39,188 nucleotides of DNA, taken from a virus. The translations under genes and the position numbers were made by a program. Of the stretch, positions 8,489 through 31,836 are shown in pieces. The DNA is taken from the IMG/VR virus record IMGVR_UViG_3300032893_000156, positions 1 to 39,188 of that record; one strand, written 5' to 3'. How positions within the stretch are numbered: position 1 is the first letter of the stretch; every line of letters starts with the position of its first letter. The notes below the pieces were generated by a model. It did not search any database. It had not been told where the DNA came from and saw nothing but the letters and a program-made list of their open reading frames with translations.

Positions 8489-8782
8489 ATGTACCTATCA
8501 AGCTCCGAACGAACCGGAGTTCTTTTGGAACTCATGCGGAATCTAGAAGCGCTTGTTGACGCCGGCAATATCTCTGCCGCCCACGCATTCAGGGTAGCAG
8601 TTAAGGCCGCGCACGACCACACGGATTGGCCCGACGAACCTAACAAGTCAGAACCGTCCGCTGGTCAATCAGTAACGTTCAATTCATCGGGACAGACAAT
8701 ATCCGCCGAAAATATCCCGCCTTCCAACGTGGTCGACGAAGAACAACCGGCTAACGTAGTGGAACAGGAACAACCGATTTAG
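8489..8782 (+). CDS. Hypothetical protein, helical head and disordered acidic tail
   Basis: 97 residues with a strong AAAGGAG site 5 bases before ATG 8489. Residues 1-50 look helical (RTGVLLELMRNLEALVDAGNISAAHAFRVAVKAAHDH). The rest is polar and acidic (SEPSAGQ..., DEEQPANVVEQEQPI) and probably disordered. No family was recognised. It is the last gene before the structured RNA element at 8789. Confidence 0.75.
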   Translation: MYLSSSERTGVLLELMRNLEALVDAGNISAAHAFRVAVKAAHDHTDWPDEPNKSEPSAGQSVTFNSSGQTISAENIPPSNVVDEEQPANVVEQEQPI

Positions 8783-8788
8783 CGAGTT

Positions 8789-8870
8789 GGGCCGCTCGAC
8801 GAGCCGACTCTGAGAGTTCTGAGAGGAAACTCTCATGTTCTCAGGTAACTATCACGGTGCGAAGCGGCCC
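8789..8870 (+). ncRNA. Folded RNA element upstream of the methyltransferase
   Basis: 82 bases fold into nested helices with no forced pairs. The closing stem GGGCCGCT (8789-8796) pairs with AGCGGCCC (8863-8870). Inside, GCCG (8803-8806) pairs with CGGT (8855-8858). Then CTGAGA (8810-8815) pairs with TCTCAG (8839-8844). Above a 4x3 internal loop, TGAGAG (8820-8825) pairs with CTCTCA (8830-8835), capped by a GAAA tetraloop. No U run follows, so it is not a terminator. It ends 11 bases before the ATG of the DNA methyltransferase, which has no Shine-Dalgarno sequence. It is a candidate riboswitch, translational operator or small RNA. I could not match it to a known riboswitch core. Confidence 0.6.
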
Positions 8871-8881
8871 TATAAATCCCC

Positions 8882-9991
8882 ATGACCCCTGCCTACGAAC
8901 ATAACGGCGTAACGATCTACCACGGTGACGTGCGCCAACTTCTCAAAGAACTGCCGGATGAATCCGTGAACTGTGTGGTAACAAGCCCGCCTTATTGGAG
9001 ACAGCGAGACTACAAGATTACTGGGCAAATCGGATTGGAAATCACTCCCGAGGAATACTGCGATAGTTTGGTTGAGGCCTTCCGCGAGTGTCGGAGGATT
9101 CTACGCAGCGATGGAACCTTCTGGCTAAACATCGGCGAGAAATGGGCATCCGGCGGAAATGGTGGCGGTGGCTCGTTTATGGATCAGCGTAAGGATGCAT
9201 GGTCTCACGCTGAGAATGCAAAGGGATGGAGATCACCGCCCGCTGGCTACAAAGATAAGGACATGGTGGGCATTCCCTGGATGGTTGCCTTTGCACTTCG
9301 CGCCGATGGATGGTATTTACGTCAGTGCAATATTTGGGCGAAGCCGAACTGTATGCCGGAGTCAGTCACCGACCGCTCTACAGTTGCCCACGAATACGTA
9401 TTCCAGTTAGCCAAAAACAACGATTACTGGTATGACGCGGAGAGGGCGCGGACACCTGCAGCGCCCTCATCCGAGACTCGCCTCGCACAAGATGTGGAAT
9501 CGCAGGCAGGATCATCGCGAGGAAACGGGGGTGGCAAGAAAAACGGGACAATGAAGGCTGTTACCAAGCTGACCGGATCACCGCACGGACGCCACGCGCT
9601 AGGAGATAATTTGCCCGCGACGGAACGCCGAAGTGATAAGCAGCGCGGTCATAGTCGAAAGCACAGCGGATTCAATGACCGATGGGACGCAATGACTGTC
9701 GCAGATCAGAGGGCAAACGGCGCGAATCTTCGGTCGGTATGGTGGATTAGTCCAGCCCAAACGGTCGACGAGCACTATGCGGTGATGCCTGATACCTTGG
9801 CGAAAATCTGTATCATTGCGGGCTGTCCTGCTGGTGGAATCGTTTTAGATCCGTTCTTTGGCTCTGGCACAACTGGGTTAGTAGCCCGTGCTAATGGCTG
9901 CAAGTGCATCGGTATAGAGTTGAACGCCGATTACATTGAGATCGCCAAGAAACGGTTGGCTCAATCCGTCCTAGATTTCTCCGTTTCCTAA
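8882..9991 (+). CDS. DNA methyltransferase (N4/N6 type, TSPPYW)
   Basis: 369 residues. The catalytic motif TSPPYW (residues 34-39) comes first and the SAM-binding motif VLDPFFGSGTTG near the C-terminus (around 320-332), so this is the beta-class order of the N4-cytosine/N6-adenine family. SPPY favours N4-cytosine, but many such phage enzymes methylate adenine, so the base is open. The glycine- and charge-rich middle is the likely target-recognition region. No restriction partner is encoded nearby, so it is an orphan enzyme, probably protecting phage DNA. There is no ribosome site; TATAAA lies 5 bases before the ATG, next to the folded RNA. Its stop overlaps the terminase stop on the other strand. 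Confidence 0.93.
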   Translation: MTPAYEHNGVTIYHGDVRQLLKELPDESVNCVVTSPPYWRQRDYKITGQIGLEITPEEYCDSLVEAFRECRRILRSDGTFWLNIGEKWASGGNGGGGSFMDQRKDAWSHAENAKGWRSPPAGYKDKDMVGIPWMVAFALRADGWYLRQCNIWAKPNCMPESVTDRSTVAHEYVFQLAKNNDYWYDAERARTPAAPSSETRLAQDVESQAGSSRGNGGGKKNGTMKAVTKLTGSPHGRHALGDNLPATERRSDKQRGHSRKHSGFNDRWDAMTVADQRANGANLRSVWWISPAQTVDEHYAVMPDTLAKICIIAGCPAGGIVLDPFFGSGTTGLVARANGCKCIGIELNADYIEIAKKRLAQSVLDFSVS

Positions 9992-11616
9992 TCCTTCCCC
10001 GGGGCGTCCAGACTGCGGCCAAGTCGGACGCCTTTTGCTTGCTTCTTCTCTTTTGCCTGAATCTCTTTTTCCCGTTGGAAGGCTAGGCGTGCGATGGTGG
10101 TTTCGTCGACGCCTTCTTTGCGCATTCGTGCGAGGTCTTCCTGGAGAGCCGTGCGCGCTGGCTTCTCGGAGTTCTGGCGCCAGGTGTTGAATCCGTAGGA
10201 TAAACTGTCGTAGCAATCGTCGTTCCAATCTCCGTGGATTTTTTTTACAGCCTTTCTTTCGTCAACAGTCCGGCTACTGATTGCTCCATAAGTAAGAGAT
10301 AGATCAGCGGAATCCCGCGTGAGAACGCAGAGTCCATTTGCGAGTCCGTTGTAGAGAACCTGGGCATTGCCGGCGGGGTCGTGTGCAGCTTTGATTGATC
10401 CAACGCCGTACTCCCCGAACACTTCTGCCATCACACCGTAAATACTCTTGCCGGTTCCGCGGTGTTGGTCCATCGCCTCATCCATCACGCAGAAGGACAT
10501 ACGCGGCGACTCTGGATCTCGCTGGCTGAACTTGCGCAACCAATTATCCTGAGCACCCTGCCGCGGGAAATCCGTGCTTCCGAATCCGTTCTTACACAAG
10601 CGTAAAGCGAATTCCTTCGCTCCCATCTTTCGCTCAATGCGTTCCCGCGTTACAAACACGATGCCATTTGGATTGATTGCATATAGGTGCGCTGCAGCGG
10701 CTGAGTTTCCAAAACCATAGTCAATTGACCAAAAATGATTCCAATACCAGGTATCGCCGATCGTGGCATAGGGGACCACCATCTCCGGGCGCATAAAGTC
10801 GAAGTACAACCCTTCAGCGTTGCACCAGCACCCATAGAGCATCTGCATCTGCAACTTTTTAGGCTGAGATAAAAGGCTGGTGAGCTTCTCAGGACCATAG
10901 AGCGGGTTATCCACGAGCCGAGCAGGAATGAATGATGTCGTCTTTTCTACGGGAGAATCATCCGTCCACGTGGCGCCTCGATATACTTTTGCTGGAACTA
11001 CGCAGGTTTCAAAGGGCCGATCGTCAGCTAGTGGGGCTTCGTGATGGACCGGACATCGCTTCCGAAGGAAAACTTTTTGCTGCCATCCATGTCCTACTCC
11101 GCCTGGGTTGCTGGTAAAGCGCGCACGGACTCTCAGGCCAGCCGCTTTGGGAGCTGCCAGCCAACCGATTAGGTATCGAATCCTGTGCTCTGGATGCTGC
11201 CCACTTTCATCAATCCCGAGCCAGCTATATGCGTTGCCCTGATAGCGATCAAGATCCTTGTCATGGGAAAGATACCCGGGACGAATGGTTGCGCCCGAGG
11301 GAAAGAGCCAGTGTCCTTCTTGCGCTACCCACTTTCCGCCGTAGGGTTCATAGATCGTCTTCTGAATATCTTTGAGCGCTTGCATTTCCTTGTACGATTT
11401 CCGAATGATGAGCGCGCGCAGTTTCGGGTTTTGATATTCCTGCATTGCATCTGCTACTAAATAATATGACTTACCTCCTCCACTCTGCCCTCCCATCAGG
11501 AGAAATTCTGCGCGCGAATTTATGGCAGCCTGCTGCGCCGAGTTGATCGGCCACCAGATCGGATCAACGCCGGGAGGCGGATACTCTAGGGGAGGATAGT
11601 AAGCAGCCGTGCTCAC
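9988..11616 (-). CDS. terL: Terminase large subunit
   Basis: 542 residues; it packages DNA into the prohead with ATPase and nuclease activities. Walker A GGQSGGGKS (42-50), Walker B SWLGIDES (131-138, with D136 and E137) and the coupling motif FTSNPGG (167-173) form the ATPase. The RNase-H-like nuclease part has D299 in SIDYGFG, the acidic group MDEAMD near 378-383, and the DWNDDCYDSLSYG end motif near 460-475. The start is GTG 11616, overlapping the TGA of the small-subunit gene (GTGA). It is the last gene of the late operon. Its TAG stop shares bases with the TAA of the methyltransferase gene. Confidence 0.95.
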   Translation of the reverse strand: MSTAAYYPPLEYPPPGVDPIWWPINSAQQAAINSRAEFLLMGGQSGGGKSYYLVADAMQEYQNPKLRALIIRKSYKEMQALKDIQKTIYEPYGGKWVAQEGHWLFPSGATIRPGYLSHDKDLDRYQGNAYSWLGIDESGQHPEHRIRYLIGWLAAPKAAGLRVRARFTSNPGGVGHGWQQKVFLRKRCPVHHEAPLADDRPFETCVVPAKVYRGATWTDDSPVEKTTSFIPARLVDNPLYGPEKLTSLLSQPKKLQMQMLYGCWCNAEGLYFDFMRPEMVVPYATIGDTWYWNHFWSIDYGFGNSAAAAHLYAINPNGIVFVTRERIERKMGAKEFALRLCKNGFGSTDFPRQGAQDNWLRKFSQRDPESPRMSFCVMDEAMDQHRGTGKSIYGVMAEVFGEYGVGSIKAAHDPAGNAQVLYNGLANGLCVLTRDSADLSLTYGAISSRTVDERKAVKKIHGDWNDDCYDSLSYGFNTWRQNSEKPARTALQEDLARMRKEGVDETTIARLAFQREKEIQAKEKKQAKGVRLGRSLDAPGKD

Positions 11617-12368: not shown

Positions 12369-12634
12369 TGCTCGGCACTCCGGGCACAACTGTTTTCTTT
12401 CTCCAGCAAATCACGATACCAGTTCGTCAGTTCAACGCGGTTGCTCATTCCAGTTTTATCGTAGATCATCGACATCTGGTGCTTCACCGTATCCTCGGTT
12501 GTTCCGAGCGTCGATGCGATCTCACGATTCCCTAAACCACGAACGGCGAGCAGTAAGATACGCTCTTCGCGCTCGGTTAACTGCCGGAACAGGTGCGCAA
12601 ACAGCGGATTCAGTTTCCTGATTTCTCTTGCCAA
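12332..12634 (-). CDS. Stand-alone LuxR-type HTH protein
   Basis: 100 residues. LTEREERILLLAVRGLGNREIASTLGTTEDTVKHQMSMIYDKTGMSNRVELTNWY is a complete LuxR/GerE HTH (T-RE--IL-L---G--N-EIA--L---E-TVK-----I--K-G--NR-EL). There is no receiver, autoinducer or other sensor part. It starts at TTG 12634 with AGGTGA 6 bases upstream and overlaps the polyvalent gene by 25 bases and the small-terminase gene by 37. A transcription regulator at this point of a packaging module is unusual. It may instead serve as a second DNA-recognition component of packaging, which is only an idea. Confidence 0.85.
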   Translation of the reverse strand: MAREIRKLNPLFAHLFRQLTEREERILLLAVRGLGNREIASTLGTTEDTVKHQMSMIYDKTGMSNRVELTNWYRDLLEKENSCARSAEQCPAPPRNASQS

Positions 12635-15600
12635 AACTTCACCTGGTTCCTGCGGGCCTGGTTGCGCGCTTCCTGTAAGGCATCATTCAATCCATCAGCC
12701 GCTTTCAAGAGCACATTGCGGTTGTCTTTCAGATCTTCAATCGCCTTCGCGCGCTCACCATGCGGCAAGTCGGAGCCACGCACCCGCTCGAGTTCGGTGT
12801 CAATCTCTTTCAGGTCACGCGCCATTTCGTTGAGATCATCATGGAACATCAGGTAGGTAGCAATGTTTGGGTCTTTCACAAACTCCGCAGCGGCTCGCGG
12901 ATCTTTCTCGGCTAACTGGTTCAGCGTTTGCCCGAAGGTGGCCGCTTTCGCCACATTCGATTTGAACCGCTCCTCAGCGCCGTACTTGTAGTTCGTCACG
13001 CCGAGGACGCCACCGCCGATGCCTTGCGCCCAATCCCATTCTCCCTTGTTGTTGATGAAGCGATTGAGAGCTGGTGAGCCTTTAAGGGCTGCGAACGCGA
13101 TGCGCTTCTCGAGTTCGACATTCGGCGCCCATGTCCCAGGAGTGTATTTATCTTCCGGCTTTACGAGTTCCGTCGCGGCGCCGGCGTACTTCCGGTTGTA
13201 GATTTGGTCGGCAATCATTTCAACAACAGGCCCGGACAGTGTTCCTGCCAGCGCGCTTGCTCCACGCTTCCCTTCTTCTGTCGCTCCCGCTATGACATTC
13301 TCGCCTTGCAGCTTCGCCTGAATCGCTCCGAGGACCGGGGACATCAGGTGTGTTCCCATATTGTCGGAGATTAGCCCGGAAGAGAGTTTTCGGTCTCCGA
13401 TGTGGATGTAGCGCAAGTCTGTGGCGTCTTCGTCTTTGTTTTTCCCAAGGGCTTTCAGTGCCTGGTTGATTGCCAGTGTTACTAACGCGCCGGCTACGCC
13501 AACTTTGAACGGGTGCCGCAGGAACCACTTCACCGAGGCAGTGTCCCACCCAGGAAACAGTACGAACTTGGCGAGCGTGCGCTGGCGCTCAGTCCAGTTA
13601 GCGCGGTTGTAGTTGCCGAATCCGTCTTCGACAGCACGCGCAACTTCCGCGTCAGTCATCTTTGGGAAGTGCTCTTTGAAGTAGTCTGCTACGACCACGC
13701 GTGCTTTCGGGTCTAAGCCTCCCCATCCGCCGGCAAACTTCGGATCGAACAGCACGCCTTTGCCAAATGCGCGTACCCAGTTTGCAGGGTTAAGGTTGTT
13801 GCCGATGTATTGGTTGGCGCGTCCGATATCGTTCCAATCGGTGTAGGCTCCGTACTTTGTGAGCATGTCGATAGTTGCATCGTCCACGCCTTTCATCACC
13901 CGCTCGCGGAGTTCCGGGCTGGCAATGACTTTCGCGATGCTCGGCCAGGAACGCGGGTCGAAGGCTCCGAGTCCCGAGGCTTGCCCGATTCTGCGCACAA
14001 TGTTGTTGATGTGAACCATTGGGCCGAATAGACCGACAATCTGCTCCTGGAAGAACTTACGGATTTTGCTGGCTTCCCCACCTCGAGTCGCGTCGTAGTT
14101 CTCCATCGTGTCCACTACGGCTTTTGGTCCGAGGAATCGATCGCTAGCCTTGATGCCCGGTTTGCCTGTGGCTTGGACTGCCCATCCTTCATCTGGGTTC
14201 ATTACCATGAACCGCTCACCGCGGGTTGGATCGTAGACGGCGTATGGCTTGAGTTCCGTTCCGCCTTCTTTCGCTTTCTGCACGATGTCTGGACGGTAGT
14301 AGGTCTCGCCGTTGTATTCGATCTTCGAAGGCTGCGCGGTTCCCGCGGTCCACTTCTCGGCTTTCTCGGTGAAGTCGTCAAAGAGTTGTTGCTTGAGCAC
14401 GGCGGTTTTTGCCTGCTTGAAACTCTCAATGTAGCCCGAGAAGTCTTTGCGGCCGTGTTCGTAGTGATAGGCCGCGGACATCTCGCGCGCCTTCTTGTCC
14501 ATCTTCGGCGGGCGCAAGCCTTTCTCATGGACGAATGAACCAGTGAATTCGCCGGCACCGGTCTCGGCTGGTAGCGGGTTTTTCGAGTGCTCTGGATAGG
14601 TGCGCTTGAGGTGAGGCTCTGGCGTGCCGTTTGCTTCGACGAACTTTGCTGCAGCGCGCTCCGTCTTGAATACCTGGGGTTCGCCGTCTTTCTCTACGGC
14701 CGTGCCATCGCGGTCGATGACGTGGAATCCGCCATCGGGCAGTTCTTCTGAGATGCTGAGGCTACGGCGAATCGGCCAGCCAAGCGCTAGGCGGTCGGCG
14801 GTGAGTTCTTTCCATAACGGATCAAACTTCTTGACTGCGGCCATCACCTTCGGATCTTCCGTGGCCGATTTGTACTCGTCGGGGTGCTGTGCCTGGAGGA
14901 AGTCTCGTGAGTCAGAATCGACCATCAGGGACGCTAGGCGTATCTGATCGTCATTCAATCCTTCGATGACTTTGGCAACATTCGCGTCGGCCTTCGCTTT
15001 GAAGTATCGCGGGGCATTGTCGATCAGGTGCAGGTTTTCGGCTACGTCTTCATCGACCTTGGCGAGTGAGTGATACTTGTCACCGATTTTTAGTTTCTCG
15101 CCGATGAATTCCTTTACGGCGGAGTCGTAGATTTTCTTTATGTTCTGCGCTACTTCGATGGGATTGATCGCGCCAATAGCGGCTGCACCGCGCTCGCCTA
15201 CTCTGGCTTTTTCTTGGGATCGGGCGGCTGTAGAAGTTTCTTCACCGCTTGTGCGCGCTTGTCCGGCGGCTGGCTGTTGTAAAGTTCCAGCACCGCCTTC
15301 AGCTTGCGGTCGCGGCGCCTCTCCGGGCTTTCGGCCCTGCAACTTCACAACTTCTTGCGTGCCGTCTTTCTTTGAGATCGTGACAGAATCAATCGTGAAC
15401 TTCTTCCCGTTCGTTACTTCCATCCCAACATATCGTGCTGCCTTGGCCGGATCTACATAGGCGACAGTCGCGTGCGGTTTGTATTCAGGGAATGAGGACT
15501 CCGCGAAGTCACCGTGCTTCTGAATCTCAGCATTGATGCGGTACAGCTCTGGCGATTGCACTGGCGCGATGATGACGGCGGCTCCATCGGAGTGCTCGCT

Positions 15601-18600
15601 CGGCGGGAACTTCTGTGTCTTCCCTAGACTCGCCTCGAACGGCGCTTGCTGTGAGAGGAATTTCTTGATGCCTTCGTAGTCCTCGCCTTTGATGCCGTAG
15701 CGTACCGTGACGTGATTACCTTCAACCTCTTTCCCTTGGCCTGCTAGATCGTTGGGAGAGATACGCGCACGGGCCGCGTCGAGTGCTTTGCCTGCTTCGG
15801 ATGATTCCGGGATATCATGTTGCGTGTTGCCGTATTTGTGGACGATGGGTTGCTCGGTTTGCGGTGCCCGCATTCCCCGCTCAATTTCGTCAGCGGTCTT
15901 AACTAAATCCTTGTGATATTCACCCGGCTTGAGTCCGAGTTTCTCGCGGGCTTGCCGCGTAGCTTCCTGATGGCGTGCTGCACCTTCGGCGGTGTTTGTG
16001 CCTGGCAACGGTGTGTTGGCGTTCGTTTCTACTCTCTCCACTTTCACGCCCGGCTGCGCCTTTTCTTTGTCGCCAATCAGTTCCGGGCTCACGTCTTTCT
16101 TCGCTGTGACTGGCAGACGTGTCAGTCCCACCGATTCGAGCGCTCTGTGAATGTTCTCGATTTCTCCTGGACGCGAGGCACGGCGCGATTCGATGATGAC
16201 GTTTTTGCCGTCTGCGAGATCCTGCTTTAGCGAAGCAATGCGCTCGGGGATAGGTGCGCCGATTGAGCCGTCAGCATTTTCTTTGAAGAGTGTGCCGTCG
16301 AAGTCTATGCCGAGCCTTGGCTGGACCGCGCCCTTGGATGGCGCGGAGGTAGTGTCACTCGCTAGAGATACCTTGGACGGATCAAAGATTACAACTTCAT
16401 TGCCGATGTCGAGGCCGTCGTATCCGTCGCGTTTCAGCGCGGCAGTAAGTTTGGCACTGGCATTCTCATCGAGCGACTGGATGCTATATTCTTTTTGAAG
16501 GTCGAGCACACCTTGCGGACCGTCAACCTTTTTAAGATTGGTTGCCGAAACTGTGGTAGGCAGAACATCTGAGATGCCCTCTAGTTGGCCGCCCTCTTCG
16601 TATGGTTCACGTGACTTGCTGAGATAGATTCCTTCCGCGTAATTATCGCCAAGATACGGACTATCTTCGCCGGCTGCAGAAAATCCCTTTTGCCGGATCG
16701 CCTCGGCATTGTTTGTGCCGTGATAATAAATCGCACCCGCTGGCGTCTGTTGCGGAGTTTGGGTGCTCTTTTCGCCAGCCCCTTTTTCGGGGATCACTGG
16801 TGCTATTGTACCTGTCTTTCTTGGCTGGCCTTCACCCGCTCCAGCCGCTTCTTCAACCCCACGAGCAGGAGTTTCGGCCCGAGCTTCCGGCCTTTCACCA
16901 CTTGTTCGAGTGACGGTTTCTCCGGGAACTGGAGCAGGTTGCTTGGCAGGTTCTGGCTGTTTTCCACCGGCGGCCTCCCTTCGTACATCTTGCAGTTTTA
17001 CGTTGTTGAATTTCCCTGCTTCGGAACCGTCTGGATTGAGGAATACTCCGCGCAGGCGCCGCAGTTTTTCTCCATTGCCACCGTTCGTTGTGGCATCGAC
17101 TAAGACTTTGCCGCGCTTCCATTGACCATCCTCGCCACGTACTTCGAGGATGCGACCACGCAAGTTTTCTGCTTGAGAGATTGGGGGGATGGGAGCCTTT
17201 TCTTCTCCGCGAACTTTAGCACCGTAGTCGATCGGCTCGGGCGGGTGTCCCATGTTCTCGCGGGGCACGCCACCTTCGGCAAGATAGTCACGCTTCGGTG
17301 GACCGTACTCGGATGGCGTTACTCGGCCGGGGGCGGCGACGGCTTTTTCTTCTTTGGCGGTTTCGGGGCGCGCGGTGGCAAGTCCTTCCCCTTGCTGGCT
17401 CGGTTCCACTCGTCCACGTCCACGCCCTGCTTCTCCAGTTTCTTCCGGTGGATGTTGAAGAATGCCTGCTGTGCTTGGCTTTTGAACGGCATTGTCTGCC
17501 TCCTGTCTCTCACGCGCAGCCTGTTCTGCTGCCTCGTGAGTCTGAGCGATTCGATTTTCGATTGCCGCGGCCTCGGCTTCTTTACCCGCAGCACGTAGTT
17601 CCTGGGCCTTGCGATAATCATCGTGGCTTTGCTCCGTCACTTTCGCCATCTCTGGCGTCTGAATCAGTACCTCGGCCTTCTTTACGGGTTCGCCTGCCGG
17701 CGCTTTCGTATCGACAATCGCTTGCACCTGCCGGACAGCATTCTTTCCGGGCTCTCCTGTGACGGAGCCCTCGGCCTTTTGGACGGGCAATTCGCCATGC
17801 AGGTTTTCGAGAACCTTGCCCGCTGCCTCTTGATCTGGAACCGTGACCTTTGCTGCTGAGATGTCTGCTACTTGTGACGGCTGTACGCCCTGGCGCTCCG
17901 CTTTGTCGCCAATTCGGTCAGCATCTTTCGATTTCCGAACTGCTTCCACTTCGGCGCCGGGTACACCCTTGGTTGCTTCTTCGACGGCCTTTCCGACCGC
18001 GGGAGCCTGCCGCTCGGCACTTGCGCGTAGTTCCTCAACATCGTTCGAAGCATGGACAACGGGTTTCTCTTCACCGGCTGGCGGGAGCAGTTTATAACCG
18101 CGAGGGATATCGCTATAGGTAGGTTCTGCGACTCCCATGTTTTGACGGGCTGGGACATTCTCTGCCGCTGCTTCGGCTCCGCGCTTCGTAAGATAGGAGG
18201 AAATAATACCTTGTGGATTCTGTTTTATGAGTTCTGCAGCCACGGCACGGGCTTCAGTCTGCGACGTGATGTAGATGGGGTGGCCGTTATTGTCTTGGAT
18301 GTAACCGCGTTTCCATAGGAGATCAGTTAGTGCGTTCTCTGGATTTGCCAAGCCCTTCAAACCAGAGAATGCTGCACCGCCAGCAAACGCGCCCGCAATC
18401 TGTCCAGCTTGCTCTACCAAATCCTGCACCTCTGGCGATGCACCAAAGGCTTCGGAGAGTTTCTTCGCGCCCTTGCCGCCGGCATAGCCCCCAGCCACTG
18501 ACATTGCAGTCAATTCTGGCTGAAGTATTGAACCTACAACCATCAGTGGAGTAGCGGCTGTGGTCGTGCCATGCAGAACATGAGCAAGTTTAGCCGCAGT

Positions 18601-19260
18601 GATTTCATTTTCTGGCGTGAGAGGCTCGGTGCCTTCTAATTGCCCTTTCGTGAGGGGACGAGGAAAGTTGCGAGCAATCTCCCCATAGCCACGGTAGCCG
18701 GTTATCGTTTTCAGATTTTCAATATCGGCAGCGGCTTCCTGCGGAGTGGCACGTCCAGGTTCCGTAAATTTTGGGCCTACGGGTACTGGAACGGCAGCGG
18801 GTTCCTCCGGCGAAACCGATGGCTGCGCAGTTCCACCAAGCCTTATAGCAGTAGGTTCTAACCGCTTTACTTCTTCTGGAGTTGCACCGCGGTAAGGAAT
18901 TGGGAGTGGCGGCTGCACTGGATATTGCGCAGCGCGCTGTTCGCGTTGTTCGCTTACTAACTGAGATGCGCGATCAGGAGATTGTTGTGGAGGAATCCCT
19001 AGATTCAGGTGCCCGGATACCGTTGGCAGTTCGGCACCATGAATACCGGGACTGAGATTCAACGCAGTTGGTGCGTGGTCAGCAAGAAGTGGTTGTTGAG
19101 ATATAGCAGGAGGAACTTGACTAGGCGGTGCAGGGGCGCTAGGCGGGAGGATTTTGTAGCCATCGGGAACATCGGAATACTCAGGCGCAGTCGGCGCGCT
19201 CGGAGGTGGGAGCACCTTGTAGCCAGCGGGAACGTCACTGAATTGCTGGAGAGCACCCAC
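12610..19260 (-). CDS. Giant polyvalent virion protein (ART-like, HAD, 2H phosphoesterase, LPD38-like C-terminus)
   Basis: 2216 residues. The N-terminus has three copies of a (F/Y)SD(V/I)PxGYKxLPP motif (about 7-19, 28-40, 382-394) in disordered Pro/Ala/Glu-rich sequence. Around 843-960 an ADP-ribosyltransferase-like part (YYHGTNN, GDNYAEGIYLSK, DGYDGLD, VVIFDPSKV). Near 983-1070 a HAD-phosphatase-like part (GIDFDGTLF with D986/D988, IIESRR, TAKKD). Near 1180-1300 a 2H phosphoesterase with HVTVRYG (H1183) and HATVAYV (H1263). The last 850 residues resemble large polyvalent protein C-termini (GPMVHINNI near 1750, KFVLFPGWD, a hydrophobic helix near 1912-1936). Such proteins are packed in the virion and injected with the DNA. 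Start GTG 19260 is 1 base after the previous stop. Confidence 0.85.
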   Translation of the reverse strand: MGALQQFSDVPAGYKVLPPPSAPTAPEYSDVPDGYKILPPSAPAPPSQVPPAISQQPLLADHAPTALNLSPGIHGAELPTVSGHLNLGIPPQQSPDRASQLVSEQREQRAAQYPVQPPLPIPYRGATPEEVKRLEPTAIRLGGTAQPSVSPEEPAAVPVPVGPKFTEPGRATPQEAAADIENLKTITGYRGYGEIARNFPRPLTKGQLEGTEPLTPENEITAAKLAHVLHGTTTAATPLMVVGSILQPELTAMSVAGGYAGGKGAKKLSEAFGASPEVQDLVEQAGQIAGAFAGGAAFSGLKGLANPENALTDLLWKRGYIQDNNGHPIYITSQTEARAVAAELIKQNPQGIISSYLTKRGAEAAAENVPARQNMGVAEPTYSDIPRGYKLLPPAGEEKPVVHASNDVEELRASAERQAPAVGKAVEEATKGVPGAEVEAVRKSKDADRIGDKAERQGVQPSQVADISAAKVTVPDQEAAGKVLENLHGELPVQKAEGSVTGEPGKNAVRQVQAIVDTKAPAGEPVKKAEVLIQTPEMAKVTEQSHDDYRKAQELRAAGKEAEAAAIENRIAQTHEAAEQAARERQEADNAVQKPSTAGILQHPPEETGEAGRGRGRVEPSQQGEGLATARPETAKEEKAVAAPGRVTPSEYGPPKRDYLAEGGVPRENMGHPPEPIDYGAKVRGEEKAPIPPISQAENLRGRILEVRGEDGQWKRGKVLVDATTNGGNGEKLRRLRGVFLNPDGSEAGKFNNVKLQDVRREAAGGKQPEPAKQPAPVPGETVTRTSGERPEARAETPARGVEEAAGAGEGQPRKTGTIAPVIPEKGAGEKSTQTPQQTPAGAIYYHGTNNAEAIRQKGFSAAGEDSPYLGDNYAEGIYLSKSREPYEEGGQLEGISDVLPTTVSATNLKKVDGPQGVLDLQKEYSIQSLDENASAKLTAALKRDGYDGLDIGNEVVIFDPSKVSLASDTTSAPSKGAVQPRLGIDFDGTLFKENADGSIGAPIPERIASLKQDLADGKNVIIESRRASRPGEIENIHRALESVGLTRLPVTAKKDVSPELIGDKEKAQPGVKVERVETNANTPLPGTNTAEGAARHQEATRQAREKLGLKPGEYHKDLVKTADEIERGMRAPQTEQPIVHKYGNTQHDIPESSEAGKALDAARARISPNDLAGQGKEVEGNHVTVRYGIKGEDYEGIKKFLSQQAPFEASLGKTQKFPPSEHSDGAAVIIAPVQSPELYRINAEIQKHGDFAESSFPEYKPHATVAYVDPAKAARYVGMEVTNGKKFTIDSVTISKKDGTQEVVKLQGRKPGEAPRPQAEGGAGTLQQPAAGQARTSGEETSTAARSQEKARVGERGAAAIGAINPIEVAQNIKKIYDSAVKEFIGEKLKIGDKYHSLAKVDEDVAENLHLIDNAPRYFKAKADANVAKVIEGLNDDQIRLASLMVDSDSRDFLQAQHPDEYKSATEDPKVMAAVKKFDPLWKELTADRLALGWPIRRSLSISEELPDGGFHVIDRDGTAVEKDGEPQVFKTERAAAKFVEANGTPEPHLKRTYPEHSKNPLPAETGAGEFTGSFVHEKGLRPPKMDKKAREMSAAYHYEHGRKDFSGYIESFKQAKTAVLKQQLFDDFTEKAEKWTAGTAQPSKIEYNGETYYRPDIVQKAKEGGTELKPYAVYDPTRGERFMVMNPDEGWAVQATGKPGIKASDRFLGPKAVVDTMENYDATRGGEASKIRKFFQEQIVGLFGPMVHINNIVRRIGQASGLGAFDPRSWPSIAKVIASPELRERVMKGVDDATIDMLTKYGAYTDWNDIGRANQYIGNNLNPANWVRAFGKGVLFDPKFAGGWGGLDPKARVVVADYFKEHFPKMTDAEVARAVEDGFGNYNRANWTERQRTLAKFVLFPGWDTASVKWFLRHPFKVGVAGALVTLAINQALKALGKNKDEDATDLRYIHIGDRKLSSGLISDNMGTHLMSPVLGAIQAKLQGENVIAGATEEGKRGASALAGTLSGPVVEMIADQIYNRKYAGAATELVKPEDKYTPGTWAPNVELEKRIAFAALKGSPALNRFINNKGEWDWAQGIGGGVLGVTNYKYGAEERFKSNVAKAATFGQTLNQLAEKDPRAAAEFVKDPNIATYLMFHDDLNEMARDLKEIDTELERVRGSDLPHGERAKAIEDLKDNRNVLLKAADGLNDALQEARNQARRNQVKFWQEKSGN
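17319..17492 (-). CDS. 57-residue gene nested in another frame of the polyvalent gene
   Basis: Inside the polyvalent gene (opposite its residues about 590-648) a second minus-strand frame starts at ATG 17492 with a perfect AGGAGG 6 bases upstream and ends in TAA at 17319. The product begins MPFKSQAQQAFFNIHRKK, then LEKQGVDVDEWNRASKGKDLPPR, and ends in a Pro/Lys-rich tail. MPFKS-AQ-----H...(D/E)W--A-KG--LP is a pattern I know from small free-standing phage proteins, so this is probably a real protein. The polyvalent protein is a low-complexity linker here, and so can tolerate the constraint. Its function is unknown; it may be a virion or DNA-associated basic protein. Confidence 0.75.
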   Translation of the reverse strand: MPFKSQAQQAFFNIHRKKLEKQGVDVDEWNRASKGKDLPPRAPKPPKKKKPSPPPAE

Positions 19261-31780: not shown

Positions 31781-31811
31781 AAAAACGCGCCGGGTTTATA
31801 AGCCCGGCGCG
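31781..31811 (-). terminator. Strong rho-independent terminator after the capsid gene
   Basis: On the minus strand a perfect 9-base-pair GC stem (CGCGCCGGG, 31811-31803, with CCCGGCGCG, 31794-31786), an 8-base AT-rich loop, then TTTTT (31785-31781). It lies 25 bases after the capsid stop. It probably limits expression of the genes downstream relative to capsid and scaffold. Confidence 0.88.
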
Positions 31812-31836
31812 GCTCTCTCTTTCTCAGGTTCCCCGT

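Follow-up and report, generated by a model that had tools for sequence, protein, structure and literature searches.

The window analysed is the complete 39,188-base record of an uncultured virus, whose terminase is distantly related to that of the HMO-2011-like phages and finds its closest relatives on other uncultured contigs, mostly at 66–74% identity. A plus-strand operon encodes AAA_24, Gp157-like and winged-helix proteins, with a 97-codon ORF and a DNA methyltransferase gene at its end. The genes between 7173 and 8782 abut or overlap, being separated by gaps of a few bases at most. The 99-nt gap before the methyltransferase gene is the exception in this packed operon, and a hairpin fills it. 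The features around the gap are as follows.

8489–8782, plus strand: 97-codon ORF with a strong Shine-Dalgarno (SD) sequence, AAAGGAG; its TAG stop codon (8780–8782) lies seven bases before the hairpin
8789–8870, plus strand: 82-nt hairpin
8871–8876, plus strand: TATAAA, possibly a −10 element, lying 5 nt ahead of the ATG at 8882, with no −35 match
8882–9991, plus strand: N4/N6 DNA methyltransferase gene (PF01555), without an SD of its own
9988–11616, minus strand: terminase large subunit gene, convergent with the methyltransferase gene

The 97-codon ORF has no detectable relatives, and its product ends in a low-complexity tail that coincides with an imperfect 27-nt repeat (8726/8753). Read-through of the TAG at 8780 into the methyltransferase gene is blocked by in-frame TAA codons at 8846 and 8873. 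Elsewhere in the record, a 2216-codon ORF (12610–19260, minus strand) gives short and weak PHROG matches only, to RNA ligase and phosphoheptose isomerase.

The minimum free energy (MFE) of the segment 8789–8870 is −40.0 kcal/mol, and none of 200 shuffled versions is as stable (mean −25.1 kcal/mol, standard deviation 3.2, z −4.63). The predicted fold contains 29 pairs and forms a long, near-continuous duplex with small internal loops:

((((((((...((.((((((.(((((((...((((((....))))))..)))))))))........)))).)).))))))))

8789–8796/8863–8870, plus strand: basal helix, 8 bp
8800–8801/8860–8861, plus strand: 2-bp helix
8803–8806/8855–8858, plus strand: 4-bp helix
8807–8808/8845–8846, plus strand: 2-bp helix
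8810–8816/8838–8844, plus strand: middle helix, 7 bp including one G-U pair
8820–8825/8830–8835, plus strand: apical helix, 6 bp, which pairs most of an SD-like sequence described below
8826–8829, plus strand: GAAA tetraloop of the apical helix
8847–8854, plus strand: unpaired 8-nt bulge, AACUAUCA
8776–8781/8873–8878, plus strand: possible outermost A+U-rich helix, GAUUUA/UAAAUC, weak, contributing only about 1 kcal/mol

The helices of 8, 6, 6 and 4 pairs named in the original prediction are present, including the 6-bp apical stem and its GAAA loop, but small extensions had been missed. To place this fold in the context of the record, 82-nt segments were scanned at a step of 4 on both strands (19,554 segments), and their energies were adjusted for composition by regression. 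The hairpin ranks first on either strand, with an adjusted energy of −4.89 standard deviations on the plus strand, and the minus strand of the same site ranks second at −4.51. Since the fold has two G-U pairs that work only as plus-strand RNA, the plus strand is favoured. The next adjusted fold (−4.21, segment at 31781) belongs to a canonical terminator-like hairpin between two late genes (31786–31812, minus strand), in which CGCGCCGGGCTTATAAACCCGGCGCG is followed by TTTTTA on the minus strand.

No known RNA class accounts for the hairpin. The original prediction had found no riboswitch match. An Rfam scan of the window returned no hits at the gathering score, and a local search at E values up to 10 yielded no plausible family. 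The suggestion of SAM or SAH sensing in that prediction is not supported, as no SAM or SAH riboswitch family matches even at that relaxed cutoff. The only weak hits were two to group II intron domain 5 (RF00029 and RF04356, at sub-threshold E values of 0.18 and 0.037), which are attributable to the shared GAAA hairpin. The candidate lacks the catalytic AGC (or CGC) triad that marks the base of the lower helix in domain 5, with GAGA at the aligned position; it carries a 3 × 2 internal loop in place of the 2-nt bulge of domain 5, its two-stem layout differs, and no intron or reverse transcriptase gene is seen. No tRNA or tmRNA was found at the site. An intrinsic terminator is likewise rejected because the stem is followed by UAUAAAUCCCC and not by a U run, as had been noted originally. 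By eye, an integron attC site is excluded by a wrong partner site and order despite the presence of GTTGGGC, and a K-turn in the basal internal loop is incompatible with the MFE pairing. The 3′ half of the hairpin does not appear to have been copied in part from the 5′ end of the methyltransferase gene, since their alignment is no better than that of shuffled sequences.

The earlier reading of the site correctly placed the next ATG 11 nt past the hairpin (8882) and saw no SD before it, but overlooked an SD and an ATG within the hairpin, which open an ORF overlapping the methyltransferase start.

8822–8827, plus strand: SD-like AGAGGA of the candidate leader ORF, with an anti-SD duplex energy of −6.0 kcal/mol
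8835–8885, plus strand: candidate 16-codon leader ORF, MFSGNYHGAKRPYKSP followed by a stop codon, with its ATG (8835) 7 nt after the SD

The corresponding anti-SD energy upstream of the methyltransferase ATG is −1.7 kcal/mol. The leader SD is itself moderate, as 5–10% of random positions score equally well. The SD and start codon of this upstream ORF thus both lie within the structure, and its TGA overlaps the methyltransferase ATG as ATGA (8882–8885). SD bases 8822–8825 are predicted to be paired in the apical stem with a probability of about 1; the predicted cost of opening is approximately 10–11 kcal/mol for the leader SD and 18 kcal/mol for the whole initiation footprint. When the gap is shuffled with its dinucleotide content preserved, 1.75% of the sequences acquire an ORF with an SD and an ATG that ends on the ATGA (4.8% when GTG and TTG starts are counted); in the record, such an ORF is present at 3 of the 263 ATGA sites. 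Because the arrangement was noticed only after looking, these frequencies (p of about 0.01–0.02, or 0.05 with any start codon) are suggestive evidence for the leader ORF and not proof. No homologue of the putative leader peptide was found.

The hairpin also contains elements that could support other folds. Tandem copies of TCTGAGAG occur at 8809–8816 and 8818–8825 on the plus strand, and either copy is able to pair with AACUCUCA at 8828–8835. The alternative folds that exist as a result lie 4.5–8 kcal/mol above the MFE, and by these energies the finished hairpin should beat them by a wide margin. For transcripts ending at 8835–8838, however, a different 5′ hairpin (8784–8790/8804–8810) is predicted together with pairing of the first TCTGAGAG copy. 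This early-transcript fold makes a transient SD-exposed state possible.

The surroundings of the methyltransferase gene were compared across 63 viral and 20 genomic loci carrying relatives of the enzyme. In 36 of the 63 viral relatives, the gene starts as an NTGA shared with the end of a preceding ORF of 30 codons or more, and four more show TGATG-like overlaps. By comparison, an ORF of that minimum length ends at 23% of the NTGA sites on the opposite strand, taken as background. This difference indicates that the methyltransferase gene is usually coupled to an ORF upstream of it, and the candidate leader ORF, judged by its ATGA, fits this pattern. The hairpin itself was not recovered elsewhere. 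A covariance model built from the single sequence, which finds close relatives only, detected no similar hairpin at the 63 viral loci or in 14 whole viral records. A screen for strong upstream folds at most of the 63 viral and 20 genomic loci also revealed none, although its sliding grid missed the exact frame of the present hairpin (−2.66 there) and thereby understates other loci too. The same model found nothing in approximately 290 bacterial genomes around two distant carriers of the methyltransferase, a result of little weight, as the host may lie elsewhere. BLAST searches of the hairpin against phages and plasmids returned nothing meaningful. Among exact cores searched in IMG/VR, GGTAACTATCACGGTG gave 12 matches in other contexts lacking the surrounding hairpin, no more than expected by chance; GAGAGGAAACTCTCATG occurred in three unrelated places and GAGGAAACTCTCATGTTCTCAG had no match. 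The record contains no second copy. The hairpin RNA is, by these searches, an orphan among the phages, plasmids, viral contigs and roughly 290 bacterial genomes covered, so that covariation of its helices cannot be counted, and the lack of a homologue of either hairpin or peptide leaves both without comparative support.

Some relatives, including the three described here, carry other structures at this position. At one locus (L038, 1899–1994), two strong hairpins (z of about −8) stand side by side in a non-coding gap right before the methyltransferase gene; another (L018) has three CCGCTAGTGG-type repeats approximately 100 nt before the gene, probably a DNA operator, and a third (L107) has a terminator-like hairpin. 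These structures are unrelated in sequence to the present hairpin, and their dissimilarity suggests that the methyltransferase gene acquires different controls in different phages. In a further relative (L093, 5001–6968), the terminase match spans 1968 nt, compared with about 1626 nt elsewhere, and an intron, intein or extra gene may be inserted.

Considering the masked SD, the ATGA overlap and the overlapping starts of the relatives, we favour, at a probability of roughly 40%, an RBS-sequestering leader that controls the methyltransferase in cis through translational coupling. While the hairpin is folded, the leader SD would be paired and the leader ORF would remain untranslated; the uncoupled methyltransferase start, lacking an SD, would then be nearly silent. 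Opening of the hairpin, by a ribosome finishing the upstream ORF, by co-transcriptional folding or by a bound factor, would allow ribosomes to translate the leader ORF, terminate on the ATGA and reinitiate on the methyltransferase. Control of methyltransferase translation in cis, as originally proposed, thus stands as the best reading through the masked leader RBS and the ATGA overlap, but without its SAM- or SAH-sensing component. The stability of the hairpin counts against a masked leader, since so stable a structure would be expected to keep the gene switched off nearly all the time unless an activator intervened.

Translational coupling involving an RBS-masking structure is well documented (PMC12548453). 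In MS2 coat/lysis and rpmI-rplT, a structure hides the RBS and translation of the upstream ORF drives the downstream start (PMC12548453), as would be expected here; unlike in those systems, the upstream ORF is a candidate 16-codon leader starting inside the hairpin. The erm methyltransferase genes are preceded by leader-peptide hairpins, and ermBL-ermB resembles the present locus in having a short leader ORF and alternative hairpins before a methyltransferase gene (PMC11264731). Erm, however, methylates rRNA and is induced by macrolide stalling, whereas the gene here encodes a DNA methyltransferase, is overlapped by its putative leader ORF and has no known stalling signal. In the autogenous operators of T4 genes 43 and 32, a structured leader overlaps or precedes the RBS (PMC3014915), and by analogy such an arrangement would fit binding of the hairpin by the enzyme itself.

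The near-continuous 29-pair duplex with small internal loops, its intercistronic position and the match between gap and hairpin length would also suit a processing or stability hairpin, at which RNase III or another nuclease cuts the methyltransferase mRNA from the upstream early-operon genes. RNase III processing hairpins lie between the early genes of T7. We regard this explanation as unlikely, though deserving consideration; the 8-nt bulge interrupts the duplex, and the SD, ATG and ATGA inside the hairpin are left unaccounted for.

A DNA-level element, namely a palindromic operator or inserted palindrome combined with a leaderless promoter (TATAAA at 8871–8876, with transcription starting around the ATG), has a slim chance of being correct. 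The fold is strong on the minus strand too, the TATAAA lies 5 nt before an SD-less ATG, and relatives have other DNA-type elements here, such as the repeats in L018 and the terminator in L107. Conversely, there is no −35 match, the palindrome is present in a single copy, and the two G-U pairs work only as plus-strand RNA.

Phage hairpins are known to hide or bridge start sites, and in the split RBSs of T4 genes 25 and 38 a hairpin likewise lies between an upstream site and the start codon (PMC3014915). With these precedents, the looped-out hairpin might bring an upstream site, or a ribosome terminating at the TAG at 8780, beside the methyltransferase ATG, cutting the TAG-to-ATG distance from 99 to 17 nt. 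The T4 hairpins, however, connect a good SD with the start codon, whereas the best SD here is inside the hairpin; the sole SD-like match before it, GCGAG at 8782–8786, is poor (−3.0 kcal/mol) and would be spaced about 13 nt from the ATG after looping. A split RBS is accordingly improbable. The same low likelihood applies to a stand-alone phage small RNA, offered earlier as an alternative, or a transcript end: the fold is indeed self-contained and closed by the 8-bp basal helix, but no promoter-like site precedes it, no terminator-like U run follows it, and the single copy in the record has no detected relatives. Equally doubtful is the idea that the leader hairpin represents a novel type of RNA switch in phages, whose two tandem, interchangeable repeats, one bearing the SD, would sense a ligand or the methyltransferase; having no known relatives, the hairpin cannot yet be called an RNA class. 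A chance or non-functional hairpin is very unlikely: conservation cannot be shown, but this is the most extreme of all scanned segments and occupies the 99-nt gap between otherwise tightly packed genes.

We conclude that the hairpin is real and unusual, and most probably a further instance of an established form of translational control. Should the RNA-switch explanation be true, the overlapping 16-codon leader ORF would be the means of setting how strongly DNA is methylated during infection. If the RBS-sequestering leader is correct, the locus, with its masked leader start and overlapping stop and start codons, would represent a compact case of a phage timing its own DNA methyltransferase after transcription.
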